Source: Deltaproteobacteria bacterium (GTDB lineage: Bacteria; Desulfobacterota; Desulfobacteria; Desulfobacterales; Desulfosarcinaceae). Taken from it: a stretch of DNA of 64,000 nucleotides. Positions 1 through 28,573 of the stretch are shown here, in pieces. Position 1 is the first letter of the stretch, and each line of letters opens with the position of its first letter. Position numbers and translations under genes: made by a program. Location of the stretch: positions 1 to 64,000 of the forward strand of contig JAHLLR010000018.1 in the NCBI GenBank assembly GCA_020444075.1, written 5' to 3'. The notes under the pieces are model-generated. The model worked only from the letters and a program-made list of their open reading frames with translations. It was not told where the DNA came from and did not search any database.

Positions 1-54
<54 letters not shown>

Positions 55-127
55 TAAAACACCCCCCATACCTGGGGGTAAAATCGCAAATTTTGGCATT
101 CAACCACCACATATAGGAGGCACTAAA

Positions 128-1117
128 ATGAACCAAAACTCACGAACACAGCGGACTATAAATCCCACTGTACGCAATATTTTACCACAATTGTATATTT
201 CGACAATGGTAAATCAGTTTTTAATTGCCAAAGAAACGGAAAACAAACGCCATGGAACGCTCCGTTTTTATTACCAGAAATTGATCGTTTTAGAGGAATT
301 CTGCGAATGCCAGATGATCAAAACAATTGACCAGATTGATGTTCCTGTAATCCGCGAATTTATGGCCTGGTTGGAAGCCAACGGGCACAACCCGGGAGGA
401 CGTCATGCTTTCTTCCGCGCAACCAAGGCATTTCTCAACTGGGCTGCAGAGGAAATTGAAGATGATCTGGTGGACTGGAAAAACCCGTTCCTTTCCAAGC
501 GTCTCAAGGCACCCAAGGTGGACGAGCAGTTATTGGAACCGGTCAACGAGGATCACATCCGCGCCTTATTGTCTGTTTGCGACGATAGCTTCACGGGTAA
601 ACGTGATCTTGCGATCTTCTACGTGCTGATCGATACCGGTGTACGCGCCATGGAACTGGCCTCACTACAGACTGAGGATATTGGCTGGGGAGACCATTCG
701 ATCATGATCCGGCATACCAAAAATCATCACCCGCGCACCGGCTTTTTCTGCCGGGAGACAAAGAGCGCTTTACGGGCCTACCTTAAGCTGCGCGATGATG
801 ATAGTCCTTTCCTGTTTATCACGACCACAGATTTTGACCAGTTCACCTACGATGGTCTGCGTGCCGTTGTAGTCCGACGCGCAAAGCAGGCAGGTATCCC
901 AAATCCGACCATTCATGCTTTCCGGCGAACCTACGCCATCACAATGCTGCGTAAAGGGGTCAATGTCTTTCAGTTGCAGAGGTTGATGGGTCACGGCGAT
1001 TTGCAGGTGCTTACCCGCTACGTCAAGCAGATGAAAGAAGATCTGAGAGCCGCTCACGACATTGGCAGCCCGGTGGAAGAATTACTCAAACGCAAAACCT
1101 GGCGTCCAAAGAGATAA
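128..1117 (+). CDS. int: Tyrosine recombinase / phage integrase
   Basis: A 329-residue XerC/D-type site-specific recombinase that would integrate and excise the element. Residues 25-115 look like the SAM-like core-binding domain and 135-320 like the catalytic domain. The catalytic set is visible: R173 (TGVRAMEL), K198, H263 and R266 (HAFRR), H289 (LMGHGD) and the nucleophile Y298 (TRYVK). The start is fixed by the strong ribosome-binding site AGGAGG at 115-120. A terminator follows directly. It sits 74 bp from a tRNA-Leu, typical company for an integrase, although the tRNA faces the unusual way. A host Xer protein is less likely given the phage context. Confidence 0.95.
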   Translation: MNQNSRTQRTINPTVRNILPQLYISTMVNQFLIAKETENKRHGTLRFYYQKLIVLEEFCECQMIKTIDQIDVPVIREFMAWLEANGHNPGGRHAFFRATKAFLNWAAEEIEDDLVDWKNPFLSKRLKAPKVDEQLLEPVNEDHIRALLSVCDDSFTGKRDLAIFYVLIDTGVRAMELASLQTEDIGWGDHSIMIRHTKNHHPRTGFFCRETKSALRAYLKLRDDDSPFLFITTTDFDQFTYDGLRAVVVRRAKQAGIPNPTIHAFRRTYAITMLRKGVNVFQLQRLMGHGDLQVLTRYVKQMKEDLRAAHDIGSPVEELLKRKTWRPKR

Positions 1118-3936: not shown

Positions 3937-4166
3937 GCAACCTCTAATTCTTTCTCTAAATCCGGAACAATAACACGTTCCCCGACCGGTGTAACGGTAC
4001 AGGGTTCTCCGGGCGGCCATGTAAATACCTGCTTGGTATGCGGGTCCATGACTTTCTCTCCCGGGACGACGATCCGAAAAGGCCCTGCAATGTATGGGTC
4101 ACTTTTCAGAAAGAAATGCAGCATATCCCCGGCTTGGGGATTGTCAACAATGATGATCTCAGGCAT
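3933..4166 (-). CDS. Small beta-rich protein, paralogue of the next upstream gene
   Basis: 77 residues from MPEIIIVDNP, preceded by GAAGAGGTTTAT. It shares a pattern with the adjacent 4159-4368 product: a GD turn, a hydrophobic strand, then GP(F/Y)(R/K)(I/V)V and a basic TK/KE turn. The two look like a tandem duplication of a small SH3- or OB-like barrel. This is a pattern match by eye. Confidence 0.55.
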   Translation of the reverse strand: MPEIIIVDNPQAGDMLHFFLKSDPYIAGPFRIVVPGEKVMDPHTKQVFTWPPGEPCTVTPVGERVIVPDLEKELEVA

Positions 4167-4368
4167 ATAAACCTCTTCCAAAATGATGAAACCGGAAACC
4201 GGTTTCTTTGTGCATAAGCACCTGTTCCGCCGATGAAACAACTTTATAAGGACCTAAGAAGCCTATGGCGCCTTTGAAATAAACGGTGTCACCGGTTTGC
4301 AACCGGCTCCAATCTACTTCAACCAGCTCTCGATTGTTTTTACCGCGCCTGGATCGTTCAGTATCCAT
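4159..4368 (-). CDS. Small beta-rich protein, paralogue of 3933-4166
   Basis: 69 residues. Residues 24-47 (TGDTVYFKGAIGFLGPYKVV) resemble the core of the downstream neighbour. The N-terminal 18 residues overlap the primase 3' end in another frame and are rich in Arg/Lys, so the true start may be later. No named family. Confidence 0.5.
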   Translation of the reverse strand: MDTERSRRGKNNRELVEVDWSRLQTGDTVYFKGAIGFLGPYKVVSSAEQVLMHKETGFRFHHFGRGLYA

Positions 4369-5237
4369 TCATCCACATCCTTATATTCCGATATCGGAAA
4401 TTGCAGATCGGCCTTGAAGTGTTCGGCGCGTTTGACGCCGTACTTCTTGCCAGTTTTATCGTTATCGCCAATCACTACCCGTTTGTAAGACAGGGCCAGC
4501 GCGGTAAACCAGCGGTCACGGTCATTTCTTTCTCCCGTGGTTGGTGCGCACACTTTGAAGCCGTACTGGTATAAAACCATGGCGGCGATTTCACCCTTGA
4601 CAATCAGGACGGGTTCGGTGGTGTAGGCGACTTCGTCATAATTAAATAGACCGCTCATTGAGCCTTTTTTAGCAAAATAGCGCAGCCCGTTTTCGGTCGT
4701 GTTGCGGAATTTGATGCCCATCAGCTTATGATCCTCAAAGGTTGGGATTGCCATCAAATAGCGATCCTGGCCGATGTTGAAGTGTTCCAGCGTTTTGGGT
4801 TCAATTCCTCTTGATTTGGCGTATGCAATTACCCGTTCTCCGGGTGGAACATACTCTTTCCATTCGTGGCCGCTCAGGGTAACCCGGTTGGCGTGCCACT
4901 GCAGATCAGGCATTTCGTAGGTGTACCGTTGCTCAAGCAACTCCAACGCCGCCTCGATATGTTTGGGGTCTTTATCGTTGTAACCGGGCACCCGCAGGTA
5001 TCCGACCAGGTCAACCGCATCGCCTTCATGACCGCAGTTGCCATGGCATTTGAAATACTCTTTGCCATCGGATTTGACCATGATGGAGAAAGACCCGGTA
5101 TTATTCGAATGTATGTGCATTGGCAGCGGGCAAACGATCACACGTTTATTACTATCAAGCCCTAAAATGGATCTGATGGAATGCGTACGACAGGCGTCGT
5201 CAATTCGTTGTGAAAGTTCAACCGCTATGTTTTTCAT
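4314..5237 (-). CDS. DnaG-type DNA primase (zinc finger plus TOPRIM)
   Basis: A 307-residue primase that would make RNA primers for phage DNA replication. Residues 1-90 hold a CHC2-like zinc site (C36, H41 or H43, C64, C68 in KCHGNCG). Residues 205-290 hold a TOPRIM domain with the catalytic Glu in VKGE (E216) and the DND motif (D258, D260) in VVIGDNDKTG. There is no fused helicase domain, so a separate helicase would be needed; none was found in the window. The start overlaps the upstream stop as ATGA. A palindrome copy near the C-terminus reads FPISE. Confidence 0.85.
   Translation of the reverse strand: MKNIAVELSQRIDDACRTHSIRSILGLDSNKRVIVCPLPMHIHSNNTGSFSIMVKSDGKEYFKCHGNCGHEGDAVDLVGYLRVPGYNDKDPKHIEAALELLEQRYTYEMPDLQWHANRVTLSGHEWKEYVPPGERVIAYAKSRGIEPKTLEHFNIGQDRYLMAIPTFEDHKLMGIKFRNTTENGLRYFAKKGSMSGLFNYDEVAYTTEPVLIVKGEIAAMVLYQYGFKVCAPTTGERNDRDRWFTALALSYKRVVIGDNDKTGKKYGVKRAEHFKADLQFPISEYKDVDEWILNDPGAVKTIESWLK
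4385..4400. repeat. Palindrome copy 3 of 20 (one mismatch)
   Basis: First base is A instead of T. Inside the primase gene, translated as FPISE on minus. Confidence 0.9.
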
Positions 5238-5521
5238 ATATCACCACAAATATGCTTTTCGGGCTTGAAGTTCTTTTTGAGATCGTTCAGGTCCTCAAGT
5301 CCGTGGATCGGTATGGACGGTACTTCCTGCTGGCAGCGCTCACAATAACCCATCAGCTTCAATTTCCCGCGGGTTGATGTAAAGGTAAAGCCTTCCGCCG
5401 TGAAGGTGCCGTTCTTGAAATCGATACTGGTATCATCCGGGTCGTAGTCGCCCAGCAGTTTACCGACCAGTTTTTGCGTCGTTTCCGCCTGCATTTTGTA
5501 GGATAGGGCTTCGATACTCAT
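5234..5521 (-). CDS. Putative zinc-binding protein
   Basis: 95 residues. A CxxC (YCERCQQE) near residue 60 and a late HxC (KHICGDI) could bind one zinc ion. Start and stop each overlap neighbours by ATGA, coupling it to the primase downstream and the small membrane protein upstream. Probably a replication-associated accessory factor by position; no family recognised. Confidence 0.6.
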   Translation of the reverse strand: MSIEALSYKMQAETTQKLVGKLLGDYDPDDTSIDFKNGTFTAEGFTFTSTRGKLKLMGYCERCQQEVPSIPIHGLEDLNDLKKNFKPEKHICGDI

Positions 5522-5691
5522 CCGAACCTCTTTTTACCGTATACAAAGCAAAAAAGGTTGGCGGCGACTAAAAATGCACCCAGGATTTCAAACCCCCAGT
5601 CAAATGACAATCCCGGCTTGAAGGTTACGTACAGTGTTGCAAGAAAGATAATGATCGCAAGGATCAAATTGGTGTGATAAAACCTCATCAT
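5518..5691 (-). CDS. Small two-helix membrane protein (57 aa)
   Basis: Reads MMRFYHTNLI. Hydrophobic segments at about residues 8-23 and 33-51, separated by a short polar turn, and ending in a basic KKRFG tail, indicate two transmembrane helices. A perfect AGGAGG-like site precedes the tandem ATGATG. Both ends overlap neighbours by ATGA. Role unknown. Confidence 0.65.
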   Translation of the reverse strand: MMRFYHTNLILAIIIFLATLYVTFKPGLSFDWGFEILGAFLVAANLFCFVYGKKRFG

Positions 5692-5921
5692 ACCTCCTGA
5701 AACAAAGGCAGCTGCATCTGCTGGCAGCGAAATGCGTTGCCGATAAAATTGACATGCTCATATTTCTCCGGATTGGATACCGTCCAGAGATTTTTTACGT
5801 GATCAAAGGTGCGGTCCTCACGTTCTATGGCATTCTTAAAACGGTCAAGATCAGCGGAAAAATCTTTTCCGCTGATCGTAACTTCTGCTTTACTTCCGTT
5901 TATGTGGCAGTCAATCATCAT
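5688..5921 (-). CDS. Hypothetical protein
   Basis: A 77-residue protein with two beta strands at the start (IDCHINGSKAEVTISG) and a helix-rich remainder. It is directly downstream of the E1-like gene, overlapping it by ATGA, and could be a fifth member of the ubiquitin-like cassette or simply the next operon gene. Confidence 0.6.
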   Translation of the reverse strand: MMIDCHINGSKAEVTISGKDFSADLDRFKNAIEREDRTFDHVKNLWTVSNPEKYEHVNFIGNAFRCQQMQLPLFQEV

Positions 5922-6568
5922 GCCACCCCGAATAAACTGTCTTCCAGGATGTTATGGACTGAGAGGAACTTGACAGGTTTCCTGGTGGCGATCATGCGAA
6001 TAGCCCGACCAATATGCCCGGCAGCCATAAATCCCGTGAACATGGTGGCTTTTGCCGTGCAGGGTTCGTCCGTTACGCTCTCGTCAGACAGCTTGAGCAG
6101 CTGGGATGCGTAGGTATCCATGAATTTCTGATCCTGCATGTTGACCGTGTAGAGCTGAAACAACTCCGAAGCCATACGGGCATCCAGATACCAGTCCGGG
6201 CGGGAGGTTTTCACTGCCGCCCAAATGTTGTGCCTGGCATGAATGCTGTCCACTGCAGAGATCACAATATCAGTGTGGAAAGGCGTATCATAGCTGACCC
6301 TGCGTGGCACGGCGACCACTTCGGTATCGGCGTAATCGCTCAGGACTTCTTCTAAAGCCAATGCTTTATTTTTTCCGATATCGGAAATGCGGTGCAGTTG
6401 GGTGGCAATATTGACTTCATCAACGGCGTCGTCGTCATAAAGCGCCAGATGGGCAACGCCCATCTTAGCCAGCGTGATCGCCGCGGTTGCTCCAATACCA
6501 CCGCAGCCAACTAGACTGATGCTCAGTTTGCTGGCGTCGAATATCCCGATGTGTCTGGTGTGATCCAT
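5918..6568 (-). CDS. E1-like ThiF/UBA adenylyltransferase of a ubiquitin-like system
   Basis: A 216-residue ThiF-fold enzyme, predicted to adenylate the C-terminal Gly of the Ubl encoded upstream and then hold it as a thioester. A Rossmann nucleotide loop GCGGIG is at 21-26, acidic LYDDD at 43-47, the SAVDS strand end at 104-108 (D107), R131, and a candidate catalytic Cys at C170 (DEPCTAKATM). No zinc CxxC pairs, which makes it a minimal, PRTRC/JAB-associated type rather than MoeB. It overlaps the JAB gene by about 100 bp. A palindrome copy encodes ISDIGK at residues 61-66. Confidence 0.85.
   Translation of the reverse strand: MDHTRHIGIFDASKLSISLVGCGGIGATAAITLAKMGVAHLALYDDDAVDEVNIATQLHRISDIGKNKALALEEVLSDYADTEVVAVPRRVSYDTPFHTDIVISAVDSIHARHNIWAAVKTSRPDWYLDARMASELFQLYTVNMQDQKFMDTYASQLLKLSDESVTDEPCTAKATMFTGFMAAGHIGRAIRMIATRKPVKFLSVHNILEDSLFGVA
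6372..6387. repeat. Palindrome copy 4 of 20 (exact)
   Basis: Inside the E1-like gene, translated as ISDIGK on minus. Confidence 0.95.
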
Positions 6569-7250
6569 GTGCTGCTCCTTCCGTCATAAGTTCTGGCTGA
6601 AAATTGACCAAATCCTTGGCTTGGTGTTCAATGATGCCTTTTGCTTCGGCGTAATCCATGTCCCAATATTCCTCAGGAAGATCGTCCATGAAATCGTCGA
6701 ACATGCTATCGGCCAGTTCGAGAATTTTTCTTTCGTCTTCGGCGGCCCGCAGTCGTTTTGTTCTTTCTCCTTCCAGAGCCGCGAACGTAGGGTGGTAGCT
6801 GTCGATATTGGGGGTTACTTCAAGGTGCTTGGTGATTACCTTGCCATCCTTGTATTTATCAATACGACCAACCAGTCCCTTGGGGGTCAGAACGATCGAG
6901 ACACTCCACAGCACAAAATGCGGTGGACTTCCCAGTGGTTCCTGGGTGATGGTGTCTTCATCGGTACCGGACCAGTTATGGCGGCCGGGTATTCCATTAC
7001 CCATTGGGTGCCGGTGGACCCACACCTTCAAATTGCGGGCATCTTCACGGGACATCAACGGCAGGATTTTTTCCGGCGAAATTTTGGTGAAGACATAATT
7101 GCCGATATCAAGCGGCTCAAAATCATAGACAAAGATGCCATCAGCCTCCTTGTCAACCTCGCAAAAACCAAATCCGGAAAACTCGTCCCGGGTAAAGGCG
7201 GCAAAAGCCATAATCTTGTTGAAAACTTCCTGATCTAAATAGATTTTCAT
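6465..7250 (-). CDS. JAB/JAMM metalloprotease (deubiquitinase-like)
   Basis: 261 residues. The JAMM zinc-protease signature is intact: E23 (DEFSGFG), H79-x-H81 (VHRHPMG), S94 and D97 (WSGTDED). This family removes ubiquitin-like proteins from targets or trims their C-terminal tails. The C-terminal 90 residues are helical and polar. The start overlaps the E2-like gene as ATGA. With Ubl, E2 and E1 neighbours it is best read as the processing or recycling enzyme of the same pathway. Confidence 0.87.
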   Translation of the reverse strand: MKIYLDQEVFNKIMAFAAFTRDEFSGFGFCEVDKEADGIFVYDFEPLDIGNYVFTKISPEKILPLMSREDARNLKVWVHRHPMGNGIPGRHNWSGTDEDTITQEPLGSPPHFVLWSVSIVLTPKGLVGRIDKYKDGKVITKHLEVTPNIDSYHPTFAALEGERTKRLRAAEDERKILELADSMFDDFMDDLPEEYWDMDYAEAKGIIEHQAKDLVNFQPELMTEGAAHGSHQTHRDIRRQQTEHQSSWLRWYWSNRGDHAG

Positions 7251-7951
7251 GCGATCATCCTTGCAAATGGCATGGCTGCCATTACGCGCGAAACACCAGG
7301 ATGTAATCCGGGTTTAGTTTCATAGGTCATTGGCGGTATTAGCAGACTGCTGAGATAAGTGGTGCTCAAATAGAGATGTAATGAGCGGTAGATTTCCGAG
7401 ATGTTGAAAGCCTGGAACATCTGCGCCGGGTAACTGCCAAACGATCCCCAACATATACGAGGACTGGCGTGCAACGGATTATTGTCCGGAACATCAAGGA
7501 CGTTATTGTGCGGCGTTCGCTGCAGGTTGCGCGGATCGCGTGCCGGGATGAAATGCAGAGCGCCGATTACGCAATCGTTCAGGTAGCTGGCGGGAAAATA
7601 AACATAGTATTTTCCATAATCCATTTGAAAATCGAGCGGTTCTCTGTGCTGACTATCGTATACCTTGGAAATGATCGGTTTGGTGGTGGCCCTGAGATAC
7701 ATTCTCCCGTCGTGATCAATGGCGTCGAATTCCTCATAATCCAGGCAGCGCAGGCGGGTTTTTAAGGTGTCCACACCGTCTGGTTTCAACATTTGTAACA
7801 TGCGGGTGATCGGAACGCCATTAGTCTTTGCGATTATTTCCCGGCGTCCGGGCGGCATGTTACGGTATTTTTCTAATTGGGTGCGGCACTCGTCCTGGAT
7901 GGCTGTGATAAAGGCATCGGTAACGACTGCGCGTTGGGCTATTTTTATCAT
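7247..7951 (-). CDS. Putative E2-like conjugating enzyme (Prok-E2 family D / PRTRC-B-like)
   Basis: 234 residues from MIKIAQRAVV; the ATG is placed by an upstream GGAGGTACTT. The C-terminal half has E2-like order: paired strands (YGKYYVYFPASY), a Pro/Asn-rich segment, then a Cys in RICWGSFG (C167) where E2 enzymes have their catalytic Cys after a short strand, followed by two helices. The N-terminal 90 residues are a separate domain. I cannot confirm the fold without a profile search; the call relies on this motif plus its place between the Ubl and JAB/E1 genes, as in PRTRC-like cassettes. Confidence 0.65.
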   Translation of the reverse strand: MIKIAQRAVVTDAFITAIQDECRTQLEKYRNMPPGRREIIAKTNGVPITRMLQMLKPDGVDTLKTRLRCLDYEEFDAIDHDGRMYLRATTKPIISKVYDSQHREPLDFQMDYGKYYVYFPASYLNDCVIGALHFIPARDPRNLQRTPHNNVLDVPDNNPLHASPRICWGSFGSYPAQMFQAFNISEIYRSLHLYLSTTYLSSLLIPPMTYETKPGLHPGVSRVMAAMPFARMIA

Positions 7952-7973
7952 AAGTACCTCCATGGAAACAAAA

Positions 7974-8001
7974 CAGGCCGCGCATCGGATTACGCGGCCT
8001 G
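7974..8001. promoter_or_regulatory. Hairpin between Ubl and E2 genes
   Basis: A perfect 9-bp stem CAGGCCGCG/CGCGGCCTG around a 10-nt loop, in the 62-bp gap after the Ubl stop. It has no long T-tract, so it may be an attenuator or an mRNA-stabilising 3' end that raises Ubl output over the enzymes. Confidence 0.6.
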
Positions 8002-8013
8002 CATTGGTGAGAA

Positions 8014-8367
8014 TTATCCGCCTTTGACTTCGCCGATTAACATGAGGGTTGAGCCAACGGGAATGACGGTCGCGCCATCAATCACGTTGTTTTCCAGCCA
8101 CATGCTGTAAGCACCGTTGAAACGGATGTTTTGAGCGGTCAGCAAATCATTTGCTGTCATGGGGACTTCTGTGAACTGGTAGCGCGGGCTGGCGCCGTTC
8201 ACAGAAATGGTGATGAAGTTTTCGGACGGAAGCTCGAAGGCTTCTTCGATATCAGCGAAGAAATCTTCTTCAACTTCTTCCTCAACTTCGGTTTGATCTT
8301 CCCAATCAACGGGTTGATCTTGTGGAACTTCTTGCGGAACTTCTTGCTCGGGATTTAGGTTTGTCAT
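8014..8367 (-). CDS. Ubiquitin-like protein ending in Gly-Gly
   Basis: 117 residues from MTNLNPEQEV; this ATG is preceded by TGGAGGAAACC, and the longer frame starts inside that site. Residues 1-48 are an acidic, Pro/Gln/Glu-rich tail. Residues 50-117 fit a beta-grasp fold: strands FITISVNG and RYQFTEVPM, helix TANDLLTAQN, strand YSMWLEN, then VIPVGSTLMLIGEVKGG with a terminal G116-G117 ready for adenylation. The exposed di-Gly needs no cleavage. First gene of the cassette, directly behind a consensus promoter. Prok_Ub or MoaD-like by pattern; the conjugation targets are unknown. Confidence 0.75.
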   Translation of the reverse strand: MTNLNPEQEVPQEVPQDQPVDWEDQTEVEEEVEEDFFADIEEAFELPSENFITISVNGASPRYQFTEVPMTANDLLTAQNIRFNGAYSMWLENNVIDGATVIPVGSTLMLIGEVKGG

Positions 8368-8394
8368 GGTTTCCTCCAAAAATAATATGATGGT

Positions 8395-8423
8395 ATTTTA
8401 GTTGATAATGGAATAGTTGTCAA
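8395..8423 (-). promoter_or_regulatory. Sigma70-type promoter for the Ubl-E2-JAB-E1 operon
   Basis: On minus: -35 TTGACA at 8423-8418, 17-bp spacer, -10 TAAAAT at 8400-8395. The Ubl start is 28 bp further on. Confidence 0.8.
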
Positions 8424-8437
8424 CCAATTAGTTGACA
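8418..8437. promoter_or_regulatory. Operator-like dyad shared by divergent promoters
   Basis: The inverted repeat TGTCAACCAATTAGTTGACA contains the -35 boxes of both divergent promoters. Three TAGTTG(A/T) direct repeats, about 16 bp apart (8399, 8414, 8430), run through the region. A regulator bound here would control both directions. Confidence 0.65.
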
Positions 8438-8460
8438 TATATAACAATTTAATCTATAAT
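8432..8460 (+). promoter_or_regulatory. Sigma70-type promoter for the HTH/terminase-small-like gene
   Basis: -35 TTGACA at 8432-8437, 17-bp spacer, -10 TATAAT at 8455-8460: both boxes match consensus exactly. Confidence 0.85.
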
Positions 8461-8472
8461 TGCCGTTAGGCA
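8461..8472 (+). repeat. Mini-hairpin TGCCGTTAGGCA with T-run
   Basis: 4-bp stem, GTTA tetraloop, followed by seven T within the 5' leader of the HTH gene. The core GCCGTTAGGC recurs at 13641, 32748, 32927 and 34088, always in the same orientation. Here it could act as a weak attenuator. Confidence 0.6.
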
Positions 8473-8491
8473 TTTTTTTATGGGAGCATTT

Positions 8492-9133
8492 ATGAAACGA
8501 ACGCCAATCGAAGAAGTAGAGGCAGTAGGGGCAATGACACGCCGGGAATTGCCAGAGGGTAAACGAACGATCACTTTACGGGCGGATGAGCGCAAGGAAT
8601 TTCTGCGGAAAGAAATGGTTTCGAAAGCGGTGGTACTTTTCCTTGATCTTGAACAGCACCACACCTGGAAACAGATTGCAGAGGAACTGGAAATTTCAAT
8701 GGTCACTTTGAAAGAACTGACCAAATCGAAAGAATTTGTTGAACACTACAATGCACATTTCGCAGAACTTGGCACTGATCCGCGTCTTAGGGCGGCCCGT
8801 GCAAAGGTGACGGACCTGCTGCCGAAAGCGGTTGAAACCCTTGAAAATCTCTTGACTGACAGTCGATCTCCCACGGTTCAGTTGAACGCGGCCAAAGAGG
8901 TGATCCGGCTCAACGGTCTGGTTGAAACTGACAAGGGATCGTCTGACCGGTCTGAACTGGCGGAATTCCTCAAGAAAGCCAATGTTGCCATTGGCGAAGT
9001 CAATATGAATATCACGCCGCCAGATTTCCAGAAGACAATCGAACAGTATCAAAACGGTGAATTTATCGAAGCGCAATATGAGACGCTAAAAAACAATCCC
9101 GAAATGGTCGGGATCGAAGAAGAAGAAGAATAA
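8492..9133 (+). CDS. HTH protein resembling a terminase small subunit
   Basis: 213 residues from MKRTPIEEVE, placed by GGGAGCATTT; an earlier in-frame ATG at 8480 is inside that site. Residues 55-90 form a helix-turn-helix (WKQIAEELEISMVTLKEL). They are followed by a helical block (LLPKAVETLENLLTD, then QLNAAKEVIRLNGL), the usual order in small terminase subunits that recognise packaging sites. The tail is acidic (EEEEE). It is the only plus-strand gene in the early region and lies 33 kb from the large terminase, so a regulatory role is a real alternative. Confidence 0.6.
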   Translation: MKRTPIEEVEAVGAMTRRELPEGKRTITLRADERKEFLRKEMVSKAVVLFLDLEQHHTWKQIAEELEISMVTLKELTKSKEFVEHYNAHFAELGTDPRLRAARAKVTDLLPKAVETLENLLTDSRSPTVQLNAAKEVIRLNGLVETDKGSSDRSELAEFLKKANVAIGEVNMNITPPDFQKTIEQYQNGEFIEAQYETLKNNPEMVGIEEEEE

Positions 9134-9157
9134 TTATTTCATTTTTTTACTCCCCTG

Positions 9158-9183
9158 AAAGCCCCGTGAAATCGGGGTTTTTT
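9158..9183 (+). terminator. Rho-independent terminator
   Basis: GCCCCG-tgaaat-CGGGGT stem followed by six T, 25 bp after the HTH gene stop. Confidence 0.85.
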
Positions 9184-9418
9184 ATACGAAATACTTCATG
9201 TTGGAATAAATCTCTCCGATCGGGCCGGTTTTCTGGACCAGATTTTCAGCGGTCAGTAAAAGTGCGGCTTTTGCCACCGCCACCGGGTGTTTCTTATCTT
9301 CATCGGATAATCCACCGCAGTACCAGGCTTCCTGCATGTTTTTGTCGAATTGATCAAGAAAGGCCTGCAGCAGCTTGGCAACTTCCGGATTAATTACATT
9401 GCTGGATAAGTGTGCCAT
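9182..9418 (-). CDS. Hypothetical protein
   Basis: A 78-residue, mostly helical protein (MAHLSSNVINPEV start). It overlaps the preceding minus-strand gene by 29 bp and ends against the terminator of the convergent HTH gene. No recognised domain. Confidence 0.6.
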   Translation of the reverse strand: MAHLSSNVINPEVAKLLQAFLDQFDKNMQEAWYCGGLSDEDKKHPVAVAKAALLLTAENLVQKTGPIGEIYSNMKYFV

Positions 9419-9758
9419 CTTTATCCCACTTTTTCTTCAATTTGTCCTCAAGGACATAGCTGTCGTCATTCGCCTTTTTCAGATCATCAAACCAATCCGG
9501 CTTGAAGTCCGCATCATCGACATGCCATTCAAGCGCGTCCATGGCGTAATAGCGCACCCAGTCCAGTGCTTCGTTCATTTCCTCAAGGTTTTTGATGCGT
9601 TCTTTTAAGATATCGATCTCTGTCGACTGGCCTTCAATGTGTGGTTCAGCCACACCGGGATCTTCCGAGAACATATCGCAAGCGTCATTCCAGGCTTCAT
9701 CGGCATCTTTTCCGATACCGGAAATGGTCAGATCAAAATAAAAACGTTTCTTTTTCAT
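9390..9758 (-). CDS. Hypothetical acidic protein
   Basis: A 122-residue, acidic, Trp-rich helical protein with an N-terminal strand (KKRFYFDLTISG). A palindrome variant lies at its 5' end and encodes ISGIGK. It overlaps the upstream gene by ATGA. The N-terminus resembles small phage proteins with a double-psi or dodecin-like strand-helix start, but that is not enough to name it. Confidence 0.6.
   Translation of the reverse strand: MKKKRFYFDLTISGIGKDADEAWNDACDMFSEDPGVAEPHIEGQSTEIDILKERIKNLEEMNEALDWVRYYAMDALEWHVDDADFKPDWFDDLKKANDDSYVLEDKLKKKWDKDGTLIQQCN
9709..9724. repeat. Palindrome copy 5 of 20 (one mismatch)
   Basis: TTTCCGATACCGGAAA. Inside the 9390-9758 gene, read as ISGIGK on minus. Confidence 0.9.
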
Positions 9759-10156
9759 GGTTGCACCGCCTCATCAATATAGCCATAGACCCAGTTACCT
9801 GAGCCGCAATGTGGGCATTCTTTCCCGGGATAGCCTGGTGTGGTAAAGGTTTGCTCACAGGTGCAGCACTGCTTGAGTTTTTCATCCAGTAGATCATCCA
9901 GCTCACTTCGCAGGTGATCCCAGGTCAAGCCATAATTGCAGTCATGGGCGTGGTGCATATTATTGATGATCGTATTCTTATCTTCCTGGGTCAGCACAGA
10001 TAAAAGTTGTGTATCGGTAGGGTCTTTATCGTCCTCGTCTTCCAGTTCGTCACCTAACATCATATCGATGTCGTCTCCGCTCCAAATGGCATACGCAACG
10101 ACTTTATCATCATCGTAACCCTGTATGTGTTCCCGTAATTCTTTTATGGTTGGCAT
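9755..10156 (-). CDS. Protein with C-terminal zinc ribbon
   Basis: 133 residues. Residues 95-120 contain CCTCEQTF and CPHCGSGNW, a four-Cys zinc ribbon. The first 90 residues are acidic and include HHAHDCNYG. Good ribosome-binding site (AGGAGGAAAAATG region). Function unknown. Confidence 0.65.
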   Translation of the reverse strand: MPTIKELREHIQGYDDDKVVAYAIWSGDDIDMMLGDELEDEDDKDPTDTQLLSVLTQEDKNTIINNMHHAHDCNYGLTWDHLRSELDDLLDEKLKQCCTCEQTFTTPGYPGKECPHCGSGNWVYGYIDEAVQP

Positions 10157-10166
10157 TTTTCCTCCT

Positions 10167-10379
10167 TTACAAAAATTTCTCTGTTATCTGAGCGATCAAT
10201 TTGATCCTGGGCTGTTTCTTCCAGGGACGCTTTGTGGGATCACATAAAACGGCGTTTTTGATGCCTTTGTATTTGATCCATCTGATACAGGTTCCGGCAC
10301 TAAAAGCAGGCGAAAAATAGATTTGTGTAACCACTTTCTTGCGCCGGTATGGTTTGTAAATTTTATTGATCTCGATCAT
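10167..10379 (-). CDS. Small basic hypothetical protein
   Basis: 70 residues from MIEINKIYKP, rich in Lys/Arg (pI clearly basic), so possibly nucleic-acid binding. The longer frame to 10409 would start inside the palindrome copy at 10390-10405. The only purine-rich stretch near the ATG is the GGAAATAGG that the palindrome edge supplies. Confidence 0.5.
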   Translation of the reverse strand: MIEINKIYKPYRRKKVVTQIYFSPAFSAGTCIRWIKYKGIKNAVLCDPTKRPWKKQPRIKLIAQITEKFL

Positions 10380-10389
10380 GGTTAGCCTA

Positions 10390-10405
10390 TTTCCGATATC
10401 GGAAA
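10390..10405. repeat. Palindrome copy 6 of 20 (exact)
   Basis: Intergenic, abutting the stop of 10406-10720 and 10 bp upstream of the start of 10167-10379. Confidence 0.95.
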
Positions 10406-10720
10406 TCACATCGGGAATTCACCGAACGAAAGCAGGCAGTCTTCCCAAACCTCGACGCCAGTTTCATCTGAGTGGTCAAAATACAAACGAGCGCAGCCTT
10501 TATCGGCAATATACTGGTAATACTCTGCAATGGCCTCCGGTAGGGCAGTAACCGGTAAAAACGCATCCTGTTCATCAGTGAACACATGCAGACTGAGCGT
10601 ATTGGTTTTACCGATATCCTGATTTTTTTGCATATATGCTTTGATGTATTCTGTGATCGCTTCCAGATCGCTCTGCCGGTCGCCATAACCAAAATCGTTT
10701 TCTCCAAATATTTCAAACAT
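10406..10720 (-). CDS. Hypothetical acidic protein
   Basis: A 104-residue acidic protein (MFEIFGENDFGYGDRQ start) with a helical first half and a strand-rich second half. It is preceded by TTGGAGAAATA and lies just beyond the Ro60 terminator. No family recognised. Confidence 0.6.
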   Translation of the reverse strand: MFEIFGENDFGYGDRQSDLEAITEYIKAYMQKNQDIGKTNTLSLHVFTDEQDAFLPVTALPEAIAEYYQYIADKGCARLYFDHSDETGVEVWEDCLLSFGEFPM

Positions 10721-10730
10721 TATTTCTCCA

Positions 10731-10757
10731 AAAAAAAAGCGGGGAGCAATCCCCGCT
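10731..10757 (-). terminator. Rho-independent terminator after Ro60
   Basis: On minus: AAGCGGGG-attgct-CCCCGCTT followed by a run of T, directly after the TROVE gene stop. Confidence 0.88.
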
Positions 10758-12328
10758 TAGATATTCCCTTTTATGAAGTCGGTAATGATGTTACCGACGT
10801 TGGCGTCAAAACCGGCGATGTCGAGCATACCGCTGTCACTTGGATCAGCAATGCTGAATTCCGTGTTCTCGGTGGCAAGTACAACCAGCTTGGCGTTTGG
10901 ATTGATTTTTTCGCGATACTGCTGGAGCGCTTTATAAGGGTGAATATGACCAGCCCAGGTTTCATTGTCTGTCAATACGACGAACAGATCATAAAACTCA
11001 TCTTTGCGTGCAGCATCGATCATCGGCAGGGCACAATCGGTGGCGCCGAACATCATGCCACTAACCCTGCTGACAATCTTCTGGACACTGTCACCAGCCT
11101 GGATATCCAGCCGTTTGAAATTGTGCGAAAAAGCATTGATGGTCAGGTTACCGCAGTTCTGGAACACCTTGATTATGGCTGCAGCAGCCTCCCTGGCAGA
11201 AATACCGGGTAAAACTTCGCCGCCCATCGATCCGCTCACATCCAGACCGATACTGATGCGCAGGCCCATATCTTCCACATTCTTGAGCGCCATGGAAAAA
11301 GCCTGTTCGAGTGCATCTACGATCTCAACACTGACGGCCCATTCACGGCCGTGCTCATTCTTGCCATTCTTATAGGTCATGAGCGCTAGAAAGAGCTGCA
11401 GTGGATGAACGTTCATGGCGGAAATTGATGATTGATCCTTGATGCGGTCACTTAAAAACATCACCCATTCCGGATCATCCATGACACTAGCCATCGCCAT
11501 GCGGGCCAGGGATCGTATGATCGAGATATAGCCCATATTTGTAGACAGCGATCGCCAGACATTTGGCGATTTCAACCATTCGGTTGGAACGACTTCAAAC
11601 GGTGCCTTATAGATATCGATCAGGTCAACGACCGTTTCTTCATCTTCGGCTTTTTTGATCAATTCCAGACCTTTGACCAGCCCGAACAGTTTGTCGTTGA
11701 TATCGTCGTGACCGGTTGCCCAGCGGTACAGGATCAGGTGTTGCTGATCTTTTGGAACCGGATGGGTCAGGCGCAATAAATCTTTATGGCTCCAACCGTT
11801 ACGGCTCTGATACTTTGCCATGGCATAAGACAGCCGATAGGCTTCTTTTTCGGTGTAAAACCTGGAGATGGCTCGTTTAAAAGCGCGTCCCCAGCCTTTG
11901 CCAAACGAACGGGCGTAGGAAATCGCGTCAAATAACTGTGTCGGTGTCGCACACATGACGCCCATGTATTCATACGCTTTTCCATTGATCTGCGGGAACG
12001 GTGACGCCAGTGCCATGCCGAGCACTAACAAGGAAGGATCGACTTTATAAGCCCGGTTATTGGCTTTGACATCCAAAGCCAACTCCAACGCCTGTAAAGC
12101 GCCTTCTTCCGTTGCCATGAATTCTTTGAGGAAATTCATAGTGTTTGCGATTTTCCGGTCCTTGCCAACATAATATGATCCGTTTTCCGACCCTAATATC
12201 AGAAAACGAAGCATTTTAGTCTGGTCATTGACCGTAAAGACGTAACCCCCTGCGTTATTCATCACCTGGTCAGAACGAACCTTGACCATTTGATCCCCGT
12301 TTTCACTTACGACGTAATCCTTATTCAT
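10757..12328 (-). CDS. Ro60/TROVE-domain RNA-binding protein (Rsr-like)
   Basis: 523 residues. Residues 25-340 match the TROVE HEAT-repeat ring (MLRFLILGSENGSYYVG near the start is a hallmark). Residues 350-520 form a von Willebrand A domain with an intact MIDAS: DVSGSM at 363-368, Thr in FGATD and Asp in LTDN (454). Ro proteins bind small Y RNAs and misfolded RNAs, and in bacteria can tether exonucleases. The ATG follows CGGAGGCTAA. A terminator lies downstream, and a structured RNA gene with its own promoter lies immediately upstream on the same strand, as for Y RNA next to rsr in Deinococcus. Confidence 0.93.
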   Translation of the reverse strand: MNKDYVVSENGDQMVKVRSDQVMNNAGGYVFTVNDQTKMLRFLILGSENGSYYVGKDRKIANTMNFLKEFMATEEGALQALELALDVKANNRAYKVDPSLLVLGMALASPFPQINGKAYEYMGVMCATPTQLFDAISYARSFGKGWGRAFKRAISRFYTEKEAYRLSYAMAKYQSRNGWSHKDLLRLTHPVPKDQQHLILYRWATGHDDINDKLFGLVKGLELIKKAEDEETVVDLIDIYKAPFEVVPTEWLKSPNVWRSLSTNMGYISIIRSLARMAMASVMDDPEWVMFLSDRIKDQSSISAMNVHPLQLFLALMTYKNGKNEHGREWAVSVEIVDALEQAFSMALKNVEDMGLRISIGLDVSGSMGGEVLPGISAREAAAAIIKVFQNCGNLTINAFSHNFKRLDIQAGDSVQKIVSRVSGMMFGATDCALPMIDAARKDEFYDLFVVLTDNETWAGHIHPYKALQQYREKINPNAKLVVLATENTEFSIADPSDSGMLDIAGFDANVGNIITDFIKGNI

Positions 12329-12415
12329 TTAGCCTCCGATAATGTGTTTCCGATGAAAAGAGCCGAGACTGTCAGACGACGGGTATTGACTAACAAATCT
12401 CGGCTCTTTTACTGT

Positions 12416-12490
12416 AATCGAGATAAAAGGTGAATTGGGAGTATGGGTCAAATTAGCAGTTTGATATAACCCAATTCGAGCGCCTCGATT
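12416..12490 (-). repeat. RNA module 1
   Basis: Closing helix AATCGAG/CTCGATT (7 bp); inner helix GAATTGGG/CCCAATTC (8 bp); apical TCAAA/TTTGA. Confidence 0.75.
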
Positions 12491-12503
12491 ATTTACTTTT
12501 TAA

Positions 12504-15746: not shown

Positions 15747-17654
15747 TCAGGAGTCAATTTGAAATGGGACTTCAATGATGACGATATCCTTGTAGCTTCG
15801 CAGCATGCTCCTTAATCTGCTGGCTGTTTGGTTGTGGAGCAGTCGGGAACTTAATCTTTCCGGAATAAATTCAGGGATGACTACAGTAATCAACTCATCG
15901 GGGAATTCCAATTCATTGACATGTTTAATATAATCCACGATTGGTGTCAGTAAATCACGATAATCATATTCCACCAGTTCCAATTTAGTATCCCTGGTAA
16001 CTTCAGAGAATCGGTTCCAGTGTTTTAAAAATTCGGCTTTACTTTCTTCATCCGTAATAATGGTAACAATTCTGACATCATTGGATAGGCGTTTGGCGTA
16101 TTGAATTGCCCGCAGAGATCCCCGGTGGATATCGGCTATAGGCACGATTACAATATTGGCCACAGCGGTAAGTTCTGCGCTTTCCATGGTACGGGTACTT
16201 AATTTTCTTGAGACATTCGTATAATGCTTTTTAATGGAATAAAACGTATAAACCAGGATTGGAATTAATAACGCGACGATCCAGGCGCCTTCCCGAAATT
16301 TCGTAAACAAAAGAATTAAGAATACACAAAAAGTAATCAAAGCGCCAAAGGCATTCATAATGCGTTTCCATTTTACACCTTGCTCGTAATGTATTTCGGT
16401 TACATTCGTTTGGAGCGTTTCACCAGGTTTAAGATGAGCTATTTTGCCCATTAAGTGAAACATACCGGCCTGCGACAAACTGAAACACAACATAACCCCC
16501 AAAGCGTAGAGTGGAAGCATGGAAATTTCGTCTGCTTTGAAAATAATAATTAACATAGATGCAAACAATGCCAGTGTAACAATTCCTGCACTGAAGACCA
16601 GCCTGTCCCCACGGTTTTTCAACCAACGCGGTAAAAAGTTATCCCGAGCCAAAAAATATGAAAGACGAGGGAAGTCCTGATATCCGGTATTTGCAGCCAT
16701 AAAAAGTATACCGGCAGTAAATACTTGAACCCAATAATATAAAAAACCTGTGCCGGTTGCTCTTCGGGTTAATTGGGAAAGGATTGATTCAGCTTCATGC
16801 GGGATTAATGTCAGATGAGTGGCTAAAAAAGTAATGCCGATGAAAAGTGTCATGGCGATGATCCCCATGGCGACCATCGTTTTCGCTGCATTTTTTGCTT
16901 CCGGATAGCGAAAGGCTTTCACACCATTACTGATCGCCTCAATCCCTGTTAATGCGGTACAGCCACCGGCAAATGCCCTCAATAAAAGCCAGATGTAGGC
17001 AAAACCGGTTAAAGATGTGGTAGAAACCATCAGTTCTTCTGTAACCGCCATGGGTACAGCGCCGAAGATCCCGAAATAACGAACTGTCCCAACAATTATG
17101 GTCAGGAGTACGCCAATTACAAAGGCATATGTTGGTACTGCGAATATTGTGCCGCTCTCACGCACTCCGCGGAGATTAATCCAGGTAATTATTAAAATGG
17201 CCAGTAAAGCTATCCAGATTTTGTAATCTGTGAGTTCCGGAAATGCAGAGGTGACAGCTCGGACACCTGCAGAAATGGAAACCGAAACCGTCAAAACATA
17301 ATCAACCAAAAGAGCTGCCGCCGCCAGAAGAGACGGGGTTTCACCAAGATTGTCTTTTGAAACCGTATAAGCGCCGCCGCCATCCGGGTAATGCAGGATG
17401 GTCTGGATATAACTGAGGATCACTAATAACACCAACGAAGCAACCGCCAGCCCCAGAGGTATCGTCATCGCCAGAGCACCACTGCCTAAAACAATTAACA
17501 CATTCATTATTGCTTCTGTAGCGTATGCATTACTCGAAATCGGATCGGACGCAAACACCGCCAAACCACGTATTTTATCCAGGCGCTCATGTGTCTCATG
17601 GCTGGTAGGGAAGGGTTCACCTATTAAAATGCGTTTAAAATCACCAAACTCCAT
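15747..17654 (-). CDS. kimA: KimA-like potassium/proton symporter (APC/KUP superfamily)
   Basis: 635 residues with about 12 transmembrane helices over residues 25-465 and a cytoplasmic C-terminal domain at 490-635. The sequence around LLVDYVLTVSVSISAGVRA and the acidic-aromatic LHYPDGGGAY match the Bacillus KimA (YdaO) family closely from memory. The family imports K+ with H+ and in Bacillus is inhibited by c-di-AMP on the C-terminal domain. Last gene of a four-gene potassium operon behind kdpD and kdpE, with a 29-bp gap to the Usp-TM gene. No c-di-AMP riboswitch was seen. An amino-acid permease is the alternative. Confidence 0.8.
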   Translation of the reverse strand: MEFGDFKRILIGEPFPTSHETHERLDKIRGLAVFASDPISSNAYATEAIMNVLIVLGSGALAMTIPLGLAVASLVLLVILSYIQTILHYPDGGGAYTVSKDNLGETPSLLAAAALLVDYVLTVSVSISAGVRAVTSAFPELTDYKIWIALLAILIITWINLRGVRESGTIFAVPTYAFVIGVLLTIIVGTVRYFGIFGAVPMAVTEELMVSTTSLTGFAYIWLLLRAFAGGCTALTGIEAISNGVKAFRYPEAKNAAKTMVAMGIIAMTLFIGITFLATHLTLIPHEAESILSQLTRRATGTGFLYYWVQVFTAGILFMAANTGYQDFPRLSYFLARDNFLPRWLKNRGDRLVFSAGIVTLALFASMLIIIFKADEISMLPLYALGVMLCFSLSQAGMFHLMGKIAHLKPGETLQTNVTEIHYEQGVKWKRIMNAFGALITFCVFLILLFTKFREGAWIVALLIPILVYTFYSIKKHYTNVSRKLSTRTMESAELTAVANIVIVPIADIHRGSLRAIQYAKRLSNDVRIVTIITDEESKAEFLKHWNRFSEVTRDTKLELVEYDYRDLLTPIVDYIKHVNELEFPDELITVVIPEFIPERLSSRLLHNQTASRLRSMLRSYKDIVIIEVPFQIDS

Positions 17655-17683
17655 TAAATTCTCCAGATATGTTTATCAATAAC

Positions 17684-18295
17684 TTATGCAAACATAAGCT
17701 TGTACCAAGCCCAAATTAAAGCAACTTCAAGGATAAAGGTGCCGGAAACTAAAATCTGAGCCAGGTTAACCGATAATGTCTGTTCAAAATTGAATTGCAA
17801 CAAGGTAAATATGGAAATGATCAGCAAAAAACCTAAATCTCCGGCAATTTCATGCAGAAAATTTTTCATTCGATCCTTTTGATGCTGATCCAAATCTTTC
17901 ATGATATAAACCGGGATATCAAAATTTTTGGTCAAATAATCAGCAACGGGAATTGTTTTAAAATTTCCGTCGATCACTGTTTGATCCTGCTGGCAGACGA
18001 TCAAATCTTTCGAATTGGCAATTTCACGAAGGACGTCCAGCCAGGTATCCATTTCTATTGTCATCACGTCTACAGATAGTTTATTCGAAGAAGTTACAGC
18101 CTTCATGGTGGCCATATCTCGTGAGATCTCCAATAAATCATCACTTTCATCTGCAAGCACAAGATATAAAACAGATAAGAATTGATGTTCTGACAATTCA
18201 TATACCGCATGCGATAAGGCTTGATTATTTATCTGTCGCGTGGAAATGGGTACAATAACACGCCCTGAATTTTGCCGTTCAACCAATTTTTCCAT
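17684..18295 (-). CDS. Usp-like domain fused to two transmembrane helices
   Basis: 203 residues from MEKLVERQNS, placed by GGAGAGTTGT; a longer frame to 18334 exists. Residues 8-135 resemble a universal-stress-protein alpha/beta fold (GRVIVPISTRQ strand, DLIVCQQD strand, IPVYIMKD), without the usual GxxG-GS nucleotide loop. Residues 148-200 form two membrane helices. The neighbouring KdpD lacks the Usp domain that full-length KdpD carries, so this could be the split-off sensory partner; that is an inference. Confidence 0.6.
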   Translation of the reverse strand: MEKLVERQNSGRVIVPISTRQINNQALSHAVYELSEHQFLSVLYLVLADESDDLLEISRDMATMKAVTSSNKLSVDVMTIEMDTWLDVLREIANSKDLIVCQQDQTVIDGNFKTIPVADYLTKNFDIPVYIMKDLDQHQKDRMKNFLHEIAGDLGFLLIISIFTLLQFNFEQTLSVNLAQILVSGTFILEVALIWAWYKLMFA

Positions 18296-18401
18296 ACAAC
18301 TCTCCATGATGTTCAAAGAGATTGTATCCGGCACAAATAAATTGGGCGTAAAAAAAAAGATTAAATGTATAAAGAAAAAATAAAGATGCTAAAGCAGAAG
18401 A

Positions 18402-19097
18402 TCAATCAATAGATTTCAAGCGATACCCAACACCAGGTTCCGTTAGAATGATCTCAGGTTCATTGGGATTGATTTCCAATTTCTTACGTAACTGGCCGAT
18501 ATAAACCCGCAAATATTCAACCTGGTCCATTTCTGGGAAACCCCACACTTGCGTAAGGATGACTTTATGGGTGATCACCTTATCGGCATTGGAAGCCAGG
18601 AAAGCCAGTAATTTAAATTCAGTCGCGGTCAGCCGAATCTCTTTATCACCTCGGGTGACAATATGTCTGGCGAGGTCGATCATAATTGACCCGGCATTGA
18701 TGACACTTTGATTATTGCCCATCGAAGTTTGTGAGTGCCGTAAGGCTACCCGAATGCGGGCTAAAAGCTCTTCAATGCCGAACGGTTTGGTTAAGTAATC
18801 ATCTGCCCCTTTATCGAGCGCTGCAACCTTATCCTTTTCACTATCCCGTACGGAAAGGACGATAATTGGAACCTTGGACCATTCCCGGATGTTTTCACAT
18901 ACCTGAATGCCATCCATATCCCCCAATGTTAAATCGAGAATAATTATATCCGGCATTTCAACAACTGCCTGCGCCAGACCCTGTTCGCCATTCAATGCAG
19001 TAATAATACGAAAATGATTGGCTGTTAAAATGGTTTTCAGCGCCCTTAAAATTTGCGGTTCATCATCAATGATTAAAATGAGCGGTTCTTTATTCAT
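18402..19097 (-). CDS. kdpE: KdpE-type response regulator
   Basis: 231 residues from MNKEPLILII, preceded by GCGAGGGAATTATTTG. Receiver domain with D11/D12, phosphoacceptor D55 (IILDLTLGD) and the Lys in LTKPF near 105; OmpR-type winged helix at about 130-228 (RLTATEFKLLAFL, then EYLRVYIGQLRKKLE). KdpE activates potassium-uptake genes. It overlaps kdpD by 8 bp. Here the likely target is the kimA-like gene, since no kdpABC is present. Confidence 0.88.
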   Translation of the reverse strand: MNKEPLILIIDDEPQILRALKTILTANHFRIITALNGEQGLAQAVVEMPDIIILDLTLGDMDGIQVCENIREWSKVPIIVLSVRDSEKDKVAALDKGADDYLTKPFGIEELLARIRVALRHSQTSMGNNQSVINAGSIMIDLARHIVTRGDKEIRLTATEFKLLAFLASNADKVITHKVILTQVWGFPEMDQVEYLRVYIGQLRKKLEINPNEPEIILTEPGVGYRLKSID

Positions 19098-20553: not shown

Positions 20554-20907
20554 ATAATCTTGTAAAATCAGAAATTTTTACTACTAATTGCATTGTATTG
20601 AATTTGAAGACAAGAATATTTTTACCCAATTTCTGCAATGTGCTCAAAGGTGTTTAGGTAATCATTAGATTTTAACACAATAATAGATAGACCAATTTCT
20701 TCCCCTTCATGTTTATTGATACAGCAATTCGTCCTGGCTTATCTGCAACATCCTTGGCAAGAATCTAACCCGGAATTTCTATTGCCAATTTAGTTTCGAA
20801 TCCCAAGAAACCGGGTATAAATCTGATCATCATGTATTCTAATTCTCTTATGAAAATCCCCAACATTGTAGATTTGCATTTCACTAACCTGGTTTCAGGC
20901 AGCACCC

Positions 20908-20927
20908 CCAAATTATTGAAAAGATAC
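20908..20927 (+). repeat. 20-bp direct repeat, right copy
   Basis: Identical to 15696-15715, same orientation. Confidence 0.9.
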
Positions 20928-21128
20928 CTCATATCTTTTTAAATTATATACAGCTTCGTTAATCAAGCCGGTGTTAAATACATTAATTAATTCGCGGAGA
21001 AGGCTGCTTAACAAGGAAAATTTTGCAAGTCAAATTAAGGGGGAATTTCGGGTCTAATCGCCGACTTCTTTGCCGATATCGGTTGCACCATGGGATCACA
21101 GGATACCTGCTTTATAAAATTTTTTTCT

Positions 21129-21157
21129 TTGTTTGCCTTTTGAAAGGCGAGTATAAT
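21129..21157 (+). promoter_or_regulatory. Candidate promoter for the ABC transporter genes
   Basis: -35 TTGTTT, 17-bp spacer, -10 TATAAT. It leaves a leader of about 145 nt before the permease start. Confidence 0.5.
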
Positions 21158-21310
21158 TATAAAAAAGTTTGTTTTTACTTTAGAATCCGAAAACATGCAA
21201 TAAAATTCCGACTTATCGGATTACCCTGGTCCGAGAAATCGCTGGTTTGTTCTGGACTGCCACGTTGACCCCGCACATCCAGGTAATTTGAAATTGGAGG
21301 TGCCGGTTAA

Positions 21311-23038: not shown

Positions 23039-23040
23039 TC

Positions 23041-27575: not shown

Positions 27576-27601
27576 AAGGGCTCCTACAATTTTTATTTAC
27601 T

Positions 27602-27750
27602 TTATTCTATACCCAAATCATCTTGATTATCAGATTCTTGTTGGGATGTGGTGGGGGTTTCTGCCGGGGGTGAAGGTATGGGTTTTTTGAGAAGGTCTTT
27701 GGGGTTTCCGTGGAAGATGGTGTCTTTAGGAAGGGTGCAACTGAATAGCA
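27602..27750 (-). pseudogene. C-terminal remnant upstream of the restriction enzyme gene
   Basis: An open minus frame without a start reads CTLPKDTIFHGNPKDLLKKP, then a Pro/Thr/Gln-rich acidic end (QQESDNQDDLGIE). It looks like the tail of a truncated protein. GC content differs from the AT-rich genes on either side. Confidence 0.35.
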
Positions 27751-27782
27751 AATGAGTTTAATGGTATGGATTATGGACAAAT

Positions 27783-28385: not shown

Positions 28386-28494
28386 TTTCCCCAACTATTA
28401 AAATATAATATCATTTTTGAAAGAAAATACAATAAATTAGAGGTATAATTTTTTATAACCTTTTTTTGGAGGATTATTAATCTAAGGTTATGAC

Positions 28495-28557: not shown

Positions 28558-28573
28558 CAAAAGGGGTAATTTG

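Follow-up and report, generated by a model that had tools for sequence, protein, structure and literature searches.

To our knowledge, ubiquitin-like conjugation in bacteria is described mainly from host defence, plasmids and other mobile elements. The Bil system consists of four genes, which encode a ubiquitin-like protein (Ubl), an E2, a JAB-type deubiquitinase and an E1. The accessible part of one report describes its activity as ubiquitination of phage tails (PMC12135933). In the accessible part of Iyer et al. 2006 (PMC1779556) the bacterial operon type 6d is characterized by four activities (Ubl, E2, JAB and E1) together with a helical protein, and the phage genes treated in that part are lambdoid and T1-like tail genes. 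By our own reading type 6d corresponds to what is today named PRTRC. Here a cassette of four genes in the order Ubl-E2-JAB-E1 is described from a 64,000-nucleotide stretch of Desulfosarcinaceae DNA (positions 1 to 64,000 of contig JAHLLR010000018.1, assembly GCA_020444075.1; hereafter the window), which belongs to an integrated-looking temperate phage. We consider it somewhat more probable than not that the cassette specifies a reversible ubiquitin-like conjugation pathway with replication-linked targets. In a partly sampled literature of titles and abstracts, with most subscription papers outside it, no complete phage-borne cassette was found, and prior reports may exist.

The first-pass annotation of this DNA had claimed four adjacent open reading frames (ORFs) in this order, and all of them are present on the minus strand from 8367 to 5918:

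8014-8367, minus strand: Ubl candidate of 117 amino acids, with an acidic N-terminal half and the C-terminus EVKGG
7247-7951, minus strand: E2-like protein of 234 amino acids, with the invariant C167 in PRICWGSFG
6465-7250, minus strand: predicted JAB/JAMM protease of 261 amino acids, with E23, H79xH81P, S94 and D97
5918-6568, minus strand: E1/ThiF-like activating enzyme of 216 amino acids, with a GCGGIG loop, D45, D107 and the candidate catalytic C170 in a PCT motif

The E2 and JAB genes overlap by 4 nucleotides and the JAB and E1 genes by 104, while a gap of 62 nucleotides separates the Ubl and E2 genes. The E1 is firmly identified by its sequence: it is a member of the ThiF family (Pfam, 81.9 bits against a cut-off of 28.1; expectation value, E, 5e-23), its best Protein Data Bank (PDB) matches are UBA5 and ThiF, and GxGGxG, the Mg aspartate D107 and C170 are invariant in 6/6 aligned sequences, in agreement with the nucleotide loop and candidate cysteine that had been pointed out. 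The P-C-T context of C170 is reminiscent of the catalytic cysteine of eukaryotic E1 enzymes. The JAB is assigned as a putative JAMM protease by its motif, which is complete as claimed (E, HxHP and SxxD) and invariant in its E/H/H/S/D ligand set in 5/5 JABs, and by a profile match to the JABs of crAss-like phages (E 5e-6, 86% probability); the Flavobacterium phage JAB was matched at E 3e-4, and mismatched pairs in the crAss and Flavobacterium comparison grids stayed at or below 1.1% probability. Pfam gave no match for the window Ubl and no JAB match for the window JAB; searches of Pfam, NCBIfam, PHROGs and PADLOC gave nothing significant for Ubl, E2 or JAB, and the PDB profile search with these three returned matches at chance level only.

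Related phages carry the cassette too, its absence there having been set beforehand as the refuting outcome. Four other cassettes were found, in records L002 (the same record as L010 and L011), L008 (identical with L013 over 11,145 shared bases), L009 and L012, two relatives lying in metagenome-assembled genomes of Anaerolineae, so that the phage of the window may likewise have its host in this class. The order Ubl-E2-JAB-E1 is kept in 5/5 cassettes, with two E2 genes in L002 and L012, at protein identities to the window of 21-32% for E2, 29-33% for Ubl, 41-44% for JAB and 45-50% for E1. In the four phage-borne cassettes (window, L002, L008 and L009) a gene for a 77-amino-acid protein and a primase gene follow downstream, and the small terminase gene terS lies divergently upstream. 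Among 50,697 phage records the E2 and the JAB had no relatives, and the stretch 4000-12500 gave no near DNA match. The E2 alone as query confirmed no viral contig, its first alignment as query confirmed just the already known record, and the JAB was found in 1/97 genomes related to the host and in 1/389 at the class level, each time in the window's own genome.

Gene 1 probably encodes a beta-grasp Ubl, as judged from the conserved motif and the gene order. The terminal Gly-Gly is invariant in 5/5 Ubls, which bears out this part of the first-pass claim, while the beta-grasp identity stays at probable with no significant family match. In L008 the Ubl ends in GGSVA, with residues beyond the Gly-Gly, and so trimming by a protease would be needed, plausibly by L008's own JAB. 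The L008 Ubl also has a sub-threshold ThiS match (E 0.049) which ends at the Gly-Gly, the only such match among the five Ubls. This match and the ThiF-like E1 would suit a sulfur carrier, in which thiocarboxylation of the Ubl would fall to the E1 and release of its end to the JAB, in the manner of ThiS, MoaD or CysO; such a role is very unlikely, given that a gene for an E2-like protein with an invariant cysteine lies in between and that the neighbouring proteins searched included no recognisable sulfurtransferase or biosynthetic gene product.

Gene 2 is a likely but not proven E2, because of its invariant cysteine, the link of this cysteine to a jumbo-phage protein and to PRTRC B, and its shared place in the gene order. 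The claimed C167 motif stands, since C167-W168 is invariant in 7/7 sequences; the E2 identity is probable, with no significant family match, the best library match of the window protein being MoaA at E 0.012, far below the cut-off. The alignments of this E2 family, of PRTRC B and of the crAss-type counterpart, with 7, 5 and 8 rows respectively, have exactly one all-cysteine column each; L018, one of the PRTRC B rows, carries only the annotation hypothetical. The residue two positions after this cysteine is Gly in all three, with Ala in 2/7 E2 rows. The E2 profile matched an 892-amino-acid protein of the Xanthomonas jumbo phage PhiXhv-12 over 96 columns at E 0.007, with the invariant cysteine on C666 (HPHMAV...GSLCLGSF), a score reached by 0/100 shuffles and not by the reversed sequence; the PRTRC B profile picked the same C666 more weakly (E 0.06). 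The HPH motif before C666 we take to be like the HPN of classical E2s. When the jumbo-phage stretch was added to the E2 profile, PRTRC B was matched only at E 0.043, though cysteine on cysteine, and in an ungapped scan with the E2 cysteine block the PRTRC B cysteine came 3rd to 7th among some 230 places, also when the cysteine column was left out. The tandem E2 paralogues (L002 3097-4565 and L012 5281-6867) both keep the conserved cysteine, the first copy having CWA and not CWG.

The window E1 matched 73/50,697 phage records, and ten neighbourhoods were examined: seven of Crassvirales (L006, L021, L029, L030, L031, L033 and L034), a bajarodcaudo virus (L020), Flavobacterium phage FpV4 (L032) and PhiXhv-12 (L007). 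In the first nine, three genes precede the E1, and the third has the HxH...SxxD motif in 9/9; it is matched by the crAss001 JAB and, below threshold, by Pfam Prok-JAB (crAss001 E 5e-4, FpV4 E 0.008). All-against-all profile comparison of the eight crAss-type sets with FpV4 gave 97-100% for the four same-rank pairs and at most 1.6% for the 12 others. The first gene contains K-S-G-[AG] at about residue 80-95, with a tail after it, in 6/8 crAss-type rows (all except L029 and L034) and in FpV4, and this crAss-type stretch resembles the VKGG end of the window Ubl; the second has one invariant cysteine in 8/8 crAss-type rows. Against the crAss profiles the window family reached 99.8% for E1 and 86% for JAB, and its E2 was unrecognised. 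In crAss001 the set is gp79-gp76 (L021 1241-5651), a Ubl-like protein, a protein with one invariant cysteine, a JAB and an E1 behind a primase; the genes of the set carry the labels hypothetical, metalloprotease and thiamine biosynthesis. The E1 of the bajarodcaudo virus already bears the name "E1 enzyme family protein". The FpV4 set adjoins a primase and a uracil-DNA glycosylase, and the crAss sets adjoin a primase. Thus the crAss001 and FpV4 sets share with the window the four-gene order and the primase neighbourhood, with JAB and E1 homologous by profile, whereas they belong to Bacteroidota phages, their Ubl-like protein extends into a long C-terminal tail, and their E2-like protein is longer and without detectable sequence homology. 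In PhiXhv-12 (L007 808-4684), whose E1 is near-identical in four records, a 140-amino-acid protein ending in ASGG and the 892-amino-acid protein (HPH...CLG) are encoded ahead of the E1; a search of 8.5 kb for a JAMM motif was negative and the Ubl profiles did not match the 140-amino-acid protein, so these genes possibly form a Ubl-E2-E1 set without a JAB seen.

The surroundings of the cassette in the window include the following features:

5688-5921, minus strand: 77-amino-acid protein with a 4-nucleotide overlap with the E1; no significant Pfam or PDB match
4314-5237, minus strand: DnaG/TOPRIM-type primase (phrog_47, E 6e-22; TIGR01391, E 3e-8, below its cut-off)
8480-9133, plus strand: terS, small terminase subunit (phrog_2538, E 9e-10), divergent neighbour of the cassette
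8423-8395, minus strand: cassette promoter TTGACA-17-TAAAAT, 11/12 consensus
8432-8460, plus strand: second promoter, 12/12 consensus, divergent, towards terS
7973-8002, minus strand: terminator-like hairpin with a 12-bp stem and a T-rich tail between Ubl and E2 (RNA fold z -3.6)

Downstream of the E1 and on the same strand the 77-amino-acid gene is followed by two small ORFs and then by the primase. For the assertion that the cassette sits in phage early genes, only the overlap of the E1 with a small ORF and the same-strand primase downstream were seen. A relative of the 77-amino-acid gene stands behind the E1 in the window, L001, L002, L008 and L009; a HARP-like domain for its product was considered and was unsupported by the Pfam and PDB searches. 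The consensus promoter that had been described is present as the 11/12 promoter that precedes the Ubl; the perfect 12/12 copy, with which the stretch annotated in the first pass ends, faces away. In L002, L008 and L009 TTGACA-17-TATACT (11/12) lies upstream of the Ubl, and no such promoter was found in the scanned stretch 4700-5500 of L012. A palindrome at the promoter was set aside as a chance product of two facing TTGACA boxes.

The hairpin between Ubl and E2, which the first-pass annotation did not mention, may be an attenuator. A strong hairpin stands behind the Ubl in the four other cassettes as well (z -6.7 in L002, where the whole stretch was folded and a shorter one gave -0.8; -5.1 in L012; -3.5 in L008; -3.2 in L009), and it is terminator-like by scan in L002, L009 and L012 and not in L008, which has a weaker T tail. 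By eye the L008 and L009 hairpin sequences are the same, the stems of L002 and L012 are similar and that of the window is different. The listed coordinates of the first E2 ORF take in the hairpin in L002 and L012; for the L002 gene, a TTG further on, preceded by GGAGG, makes a better start. Terminator-like sites numbered 12 in 5.2 kb, where 5.3 would be expected, which shows that the scan by itself admits sites too readily; the argument for the hairpin rests on its conserved place.

The relay, the attenuation, the targets and the Ubl and E2 folds we infer as follows. The E1 would adenylate the C-terminal glycine of the Ubl and bind it in thioester linkage at C170, from where the Ubl would be handed to C167 of the E2 and then to target proteins without a dedicated E3, while the JAB would trim Ubl precursors and take the tag off, and the terminator behind the Ubl gene would keep the tag in excess over the enzymes. 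The targets would most likely be phage or host DNA-replication proteins, because the gene run continues into the primase and such sets lie in the replication block of unrelated phages; the downstream primase in particular suggests replication proteins as targets in preference to virion proteins.

Several findings weigh against this proposal. Neither the Ubl nor the E2 has a significant family or PDB match. Direct profile comparison was negative for the Ubl with PRTRC C, and it failed for the E2 with its PRTRC B, crAss and Flavobacterium counterparts. The Ubl reached E 0.007 with its crAss counterpart, which proves nothing alone because a mismatched control pair (PRTRC B with crAss E1) scored 0.0039 in the same comparison, and the jumbo-phage E 0.007 of the E2 calls for the same caution. 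In the ungapped scan the crAss cysteine matched poorly beyond the cysteine itself (from rank 14 of 428 to rank 94 of 420). The L012 cassette belongs to an Anaerolineaceae contig of 1.8 Mb, where its neighbour is, by eye, an integrase-like ORF. This cassette has neither terS nor an E1-linked primase, and the L012 genome has no match to the large terminase of the window. In L001 the E1, the 77-amino-acid gene and the primase are kept (4284-6219), and no JAB, E2 or Ubl match was found on this 60.8-kb, possibly incomplete contig; the E1 kept alone may thus act without partners, and this speaks against a pathway in which all four genes are obligatory.

Since the place between terS and primase is kept in 4/4 phage-borne cassettes through deep divergence (21-50% protein identity), a function within the cycle of the phage itself is favoured over optional defence cargo. 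The cassette could instead serve lysogen defence, in which case the prophage would express it so that competing phages are tagged and spoiled, in the way Bil acts on tails; its parts are the same as those of Bil, and an MmeI-like restriction enzyme and a KAP NTPase are among the other gene products of the prophage. Such a defensive use appears unlikely, because optional cargo would not be expected to hold one place in this manner, Ubl, E2 and JAB were unmatched in PADLOC-DB 2.0.0 (in which the presence of Bil models is not established), and the same order is carried by crAss and Flavobacterium phages, which are lytic. Counter-defence, with the JAB and the tag acting against ubiquitin-like immune systems of the host, for example CBASS (cyclic oligonucleotide-based antiphage signalling system) Cap2/Cap3 or Bil, is quite improbable: host systems using E1, E2 and JAB parts do exist, according to the accessible part of one source (PMC10097602), but a single JAB would be enough for this purpose, yet the whole conjugating set is kept.

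The phage contig is 76,420 bp long and has these end features:

13-55, plus strand: left copy of an exact 43-bp direct repeat, the likely att core, the other copy being at 76366-76408 of the contig
128-1117, plus strand: tyrosine integrase (phrog_1, E 1e-39)

Each repeat copy is 12 bases from a contig end, and the repeat is presumably the 5' part of a tRNA-Leu gene; ARAGORN found no complete tRNA in the window. The contig also encodes small and large terminase, portal, major head, a DnaB-type helicase and a Cro/C1-type regulator, and the end repeats together with these phage genes fit an integrated prophage. Among its other genes are a Ro60/Rsr-type RNA-binding protein with TROVE and Ro60 vWA domains (10757-12328, minus strand; NCBIfam Rsr 388 bits, cut-off 900), a cargo region at 15747-24342 (APC-type permease, response regulator, KdpD-like DUF4118 histidine kinase and two ABC-transporter genes), the MmeI-like restriction-modification protein with the KAP NTPase at 24762-30010, where G+C falls to 27.5%, and a PcfJ-like protein (36128-37786, minus strand; Pfam E 2e-8). 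The distance from terL to the JAB is about 12-20 kb longer in the window than in the L002, L008 and L009 records. By eye, a collagen-like protein with GPQG repeats is encoded at 66487-67860 of the contig (L023 4487-5860), adjoining an ORF which resembles a fused glycosyltransferase-methyltransferase.

A broader interpretation, which we put forward tentatively, as somewhat short of an even chance, is that virus-owned Ubl conjugation, distinct from PRTRC and Bil, forms a core of the replication block in several unrelated groups of tailed phages and steers replication there; these groups are the temperate group of the window (seen in Anaerolineae), the crAss-like phages, the Flavobacterium FpV4-type phages and the Xanthomonas/Erwinia jumbo phages. 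If true, bacterial viruses would use ubiquitin-like chemistry for themselves. Similar sets are apparently present in cultured crAss001 and FpV4-type phages, largely unrecognised under labels such as "thiamine biosynthesis", and the question becomes testable in a cultured gut phage. The Ubl-E2-JAB-E1 order common to divergent sets also bears on the origin of ubiquitin systems.

Compared with the known systems, PRTRC shares with the cassette the separate Ubl, E2, JAB and E1 genes, an E2 with one invariant cysteine in C-x-G, and the order, since PRTRC C-(F)-B-A-ThiF, which the cassette matches, is seen in 3/5 PRTRC loci, the other two differing or lacking genes. This relative order would favour a PRTRC-related maintenance module aiding persistence of the element, but such a function is highly improbable, as there is no ParB on the contig, the PRTRC models gave no match and the E1 falls outside the PRTRC clade. 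The absence of ParB had been claimed and is confirmed: ParB_N occurs at three sites of the genome, none of them on the cassette contig. Against TIGR03736 the window E1 scored 64.4 bits, that of L008 46.5 and that of L012 48, all below the cut-off of 144.75 that defines the PRTRC E1. In the E1 tree (22 rows, midpoint-rooted) it lies outside the PRTRC clade with support 100/99, the phage side being weakly supported (59/71) and the jumbo and host rows carrying a long-branch warning. Prok_Ub (PF14454) matched 0/5 cassette Ubls and 2/2 PRTRC C controls at E 8e-22 or better. The NCBIfam models of PRTRC B and A were unmatched by the window proteins, the L009 E2 and the L008 JAB, with profile comparison below 1%, and the PRTRC B model was found in 0/97 host-related genomes, control genomes likewise being without a match. 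The cassette differs from PRTRC further in being phage-borne near a primase. Cap2-Cap3 of CBASS resemble the cassette in applying E1, E2 and JAB functions to a glycine-ended protein, whereas Cap2 is a fused E1-E2 which conjugates cGAS itself, and no cGAS-like gene was identified among the proteins searched around the cassette. Bil is a host defence, whereas the cassette adjoins phage replication genes. According to these sequence comparisons the cassette is placed outside PRTRC by membership, and in its parts and their order it is PRTRC- or Bil-like.

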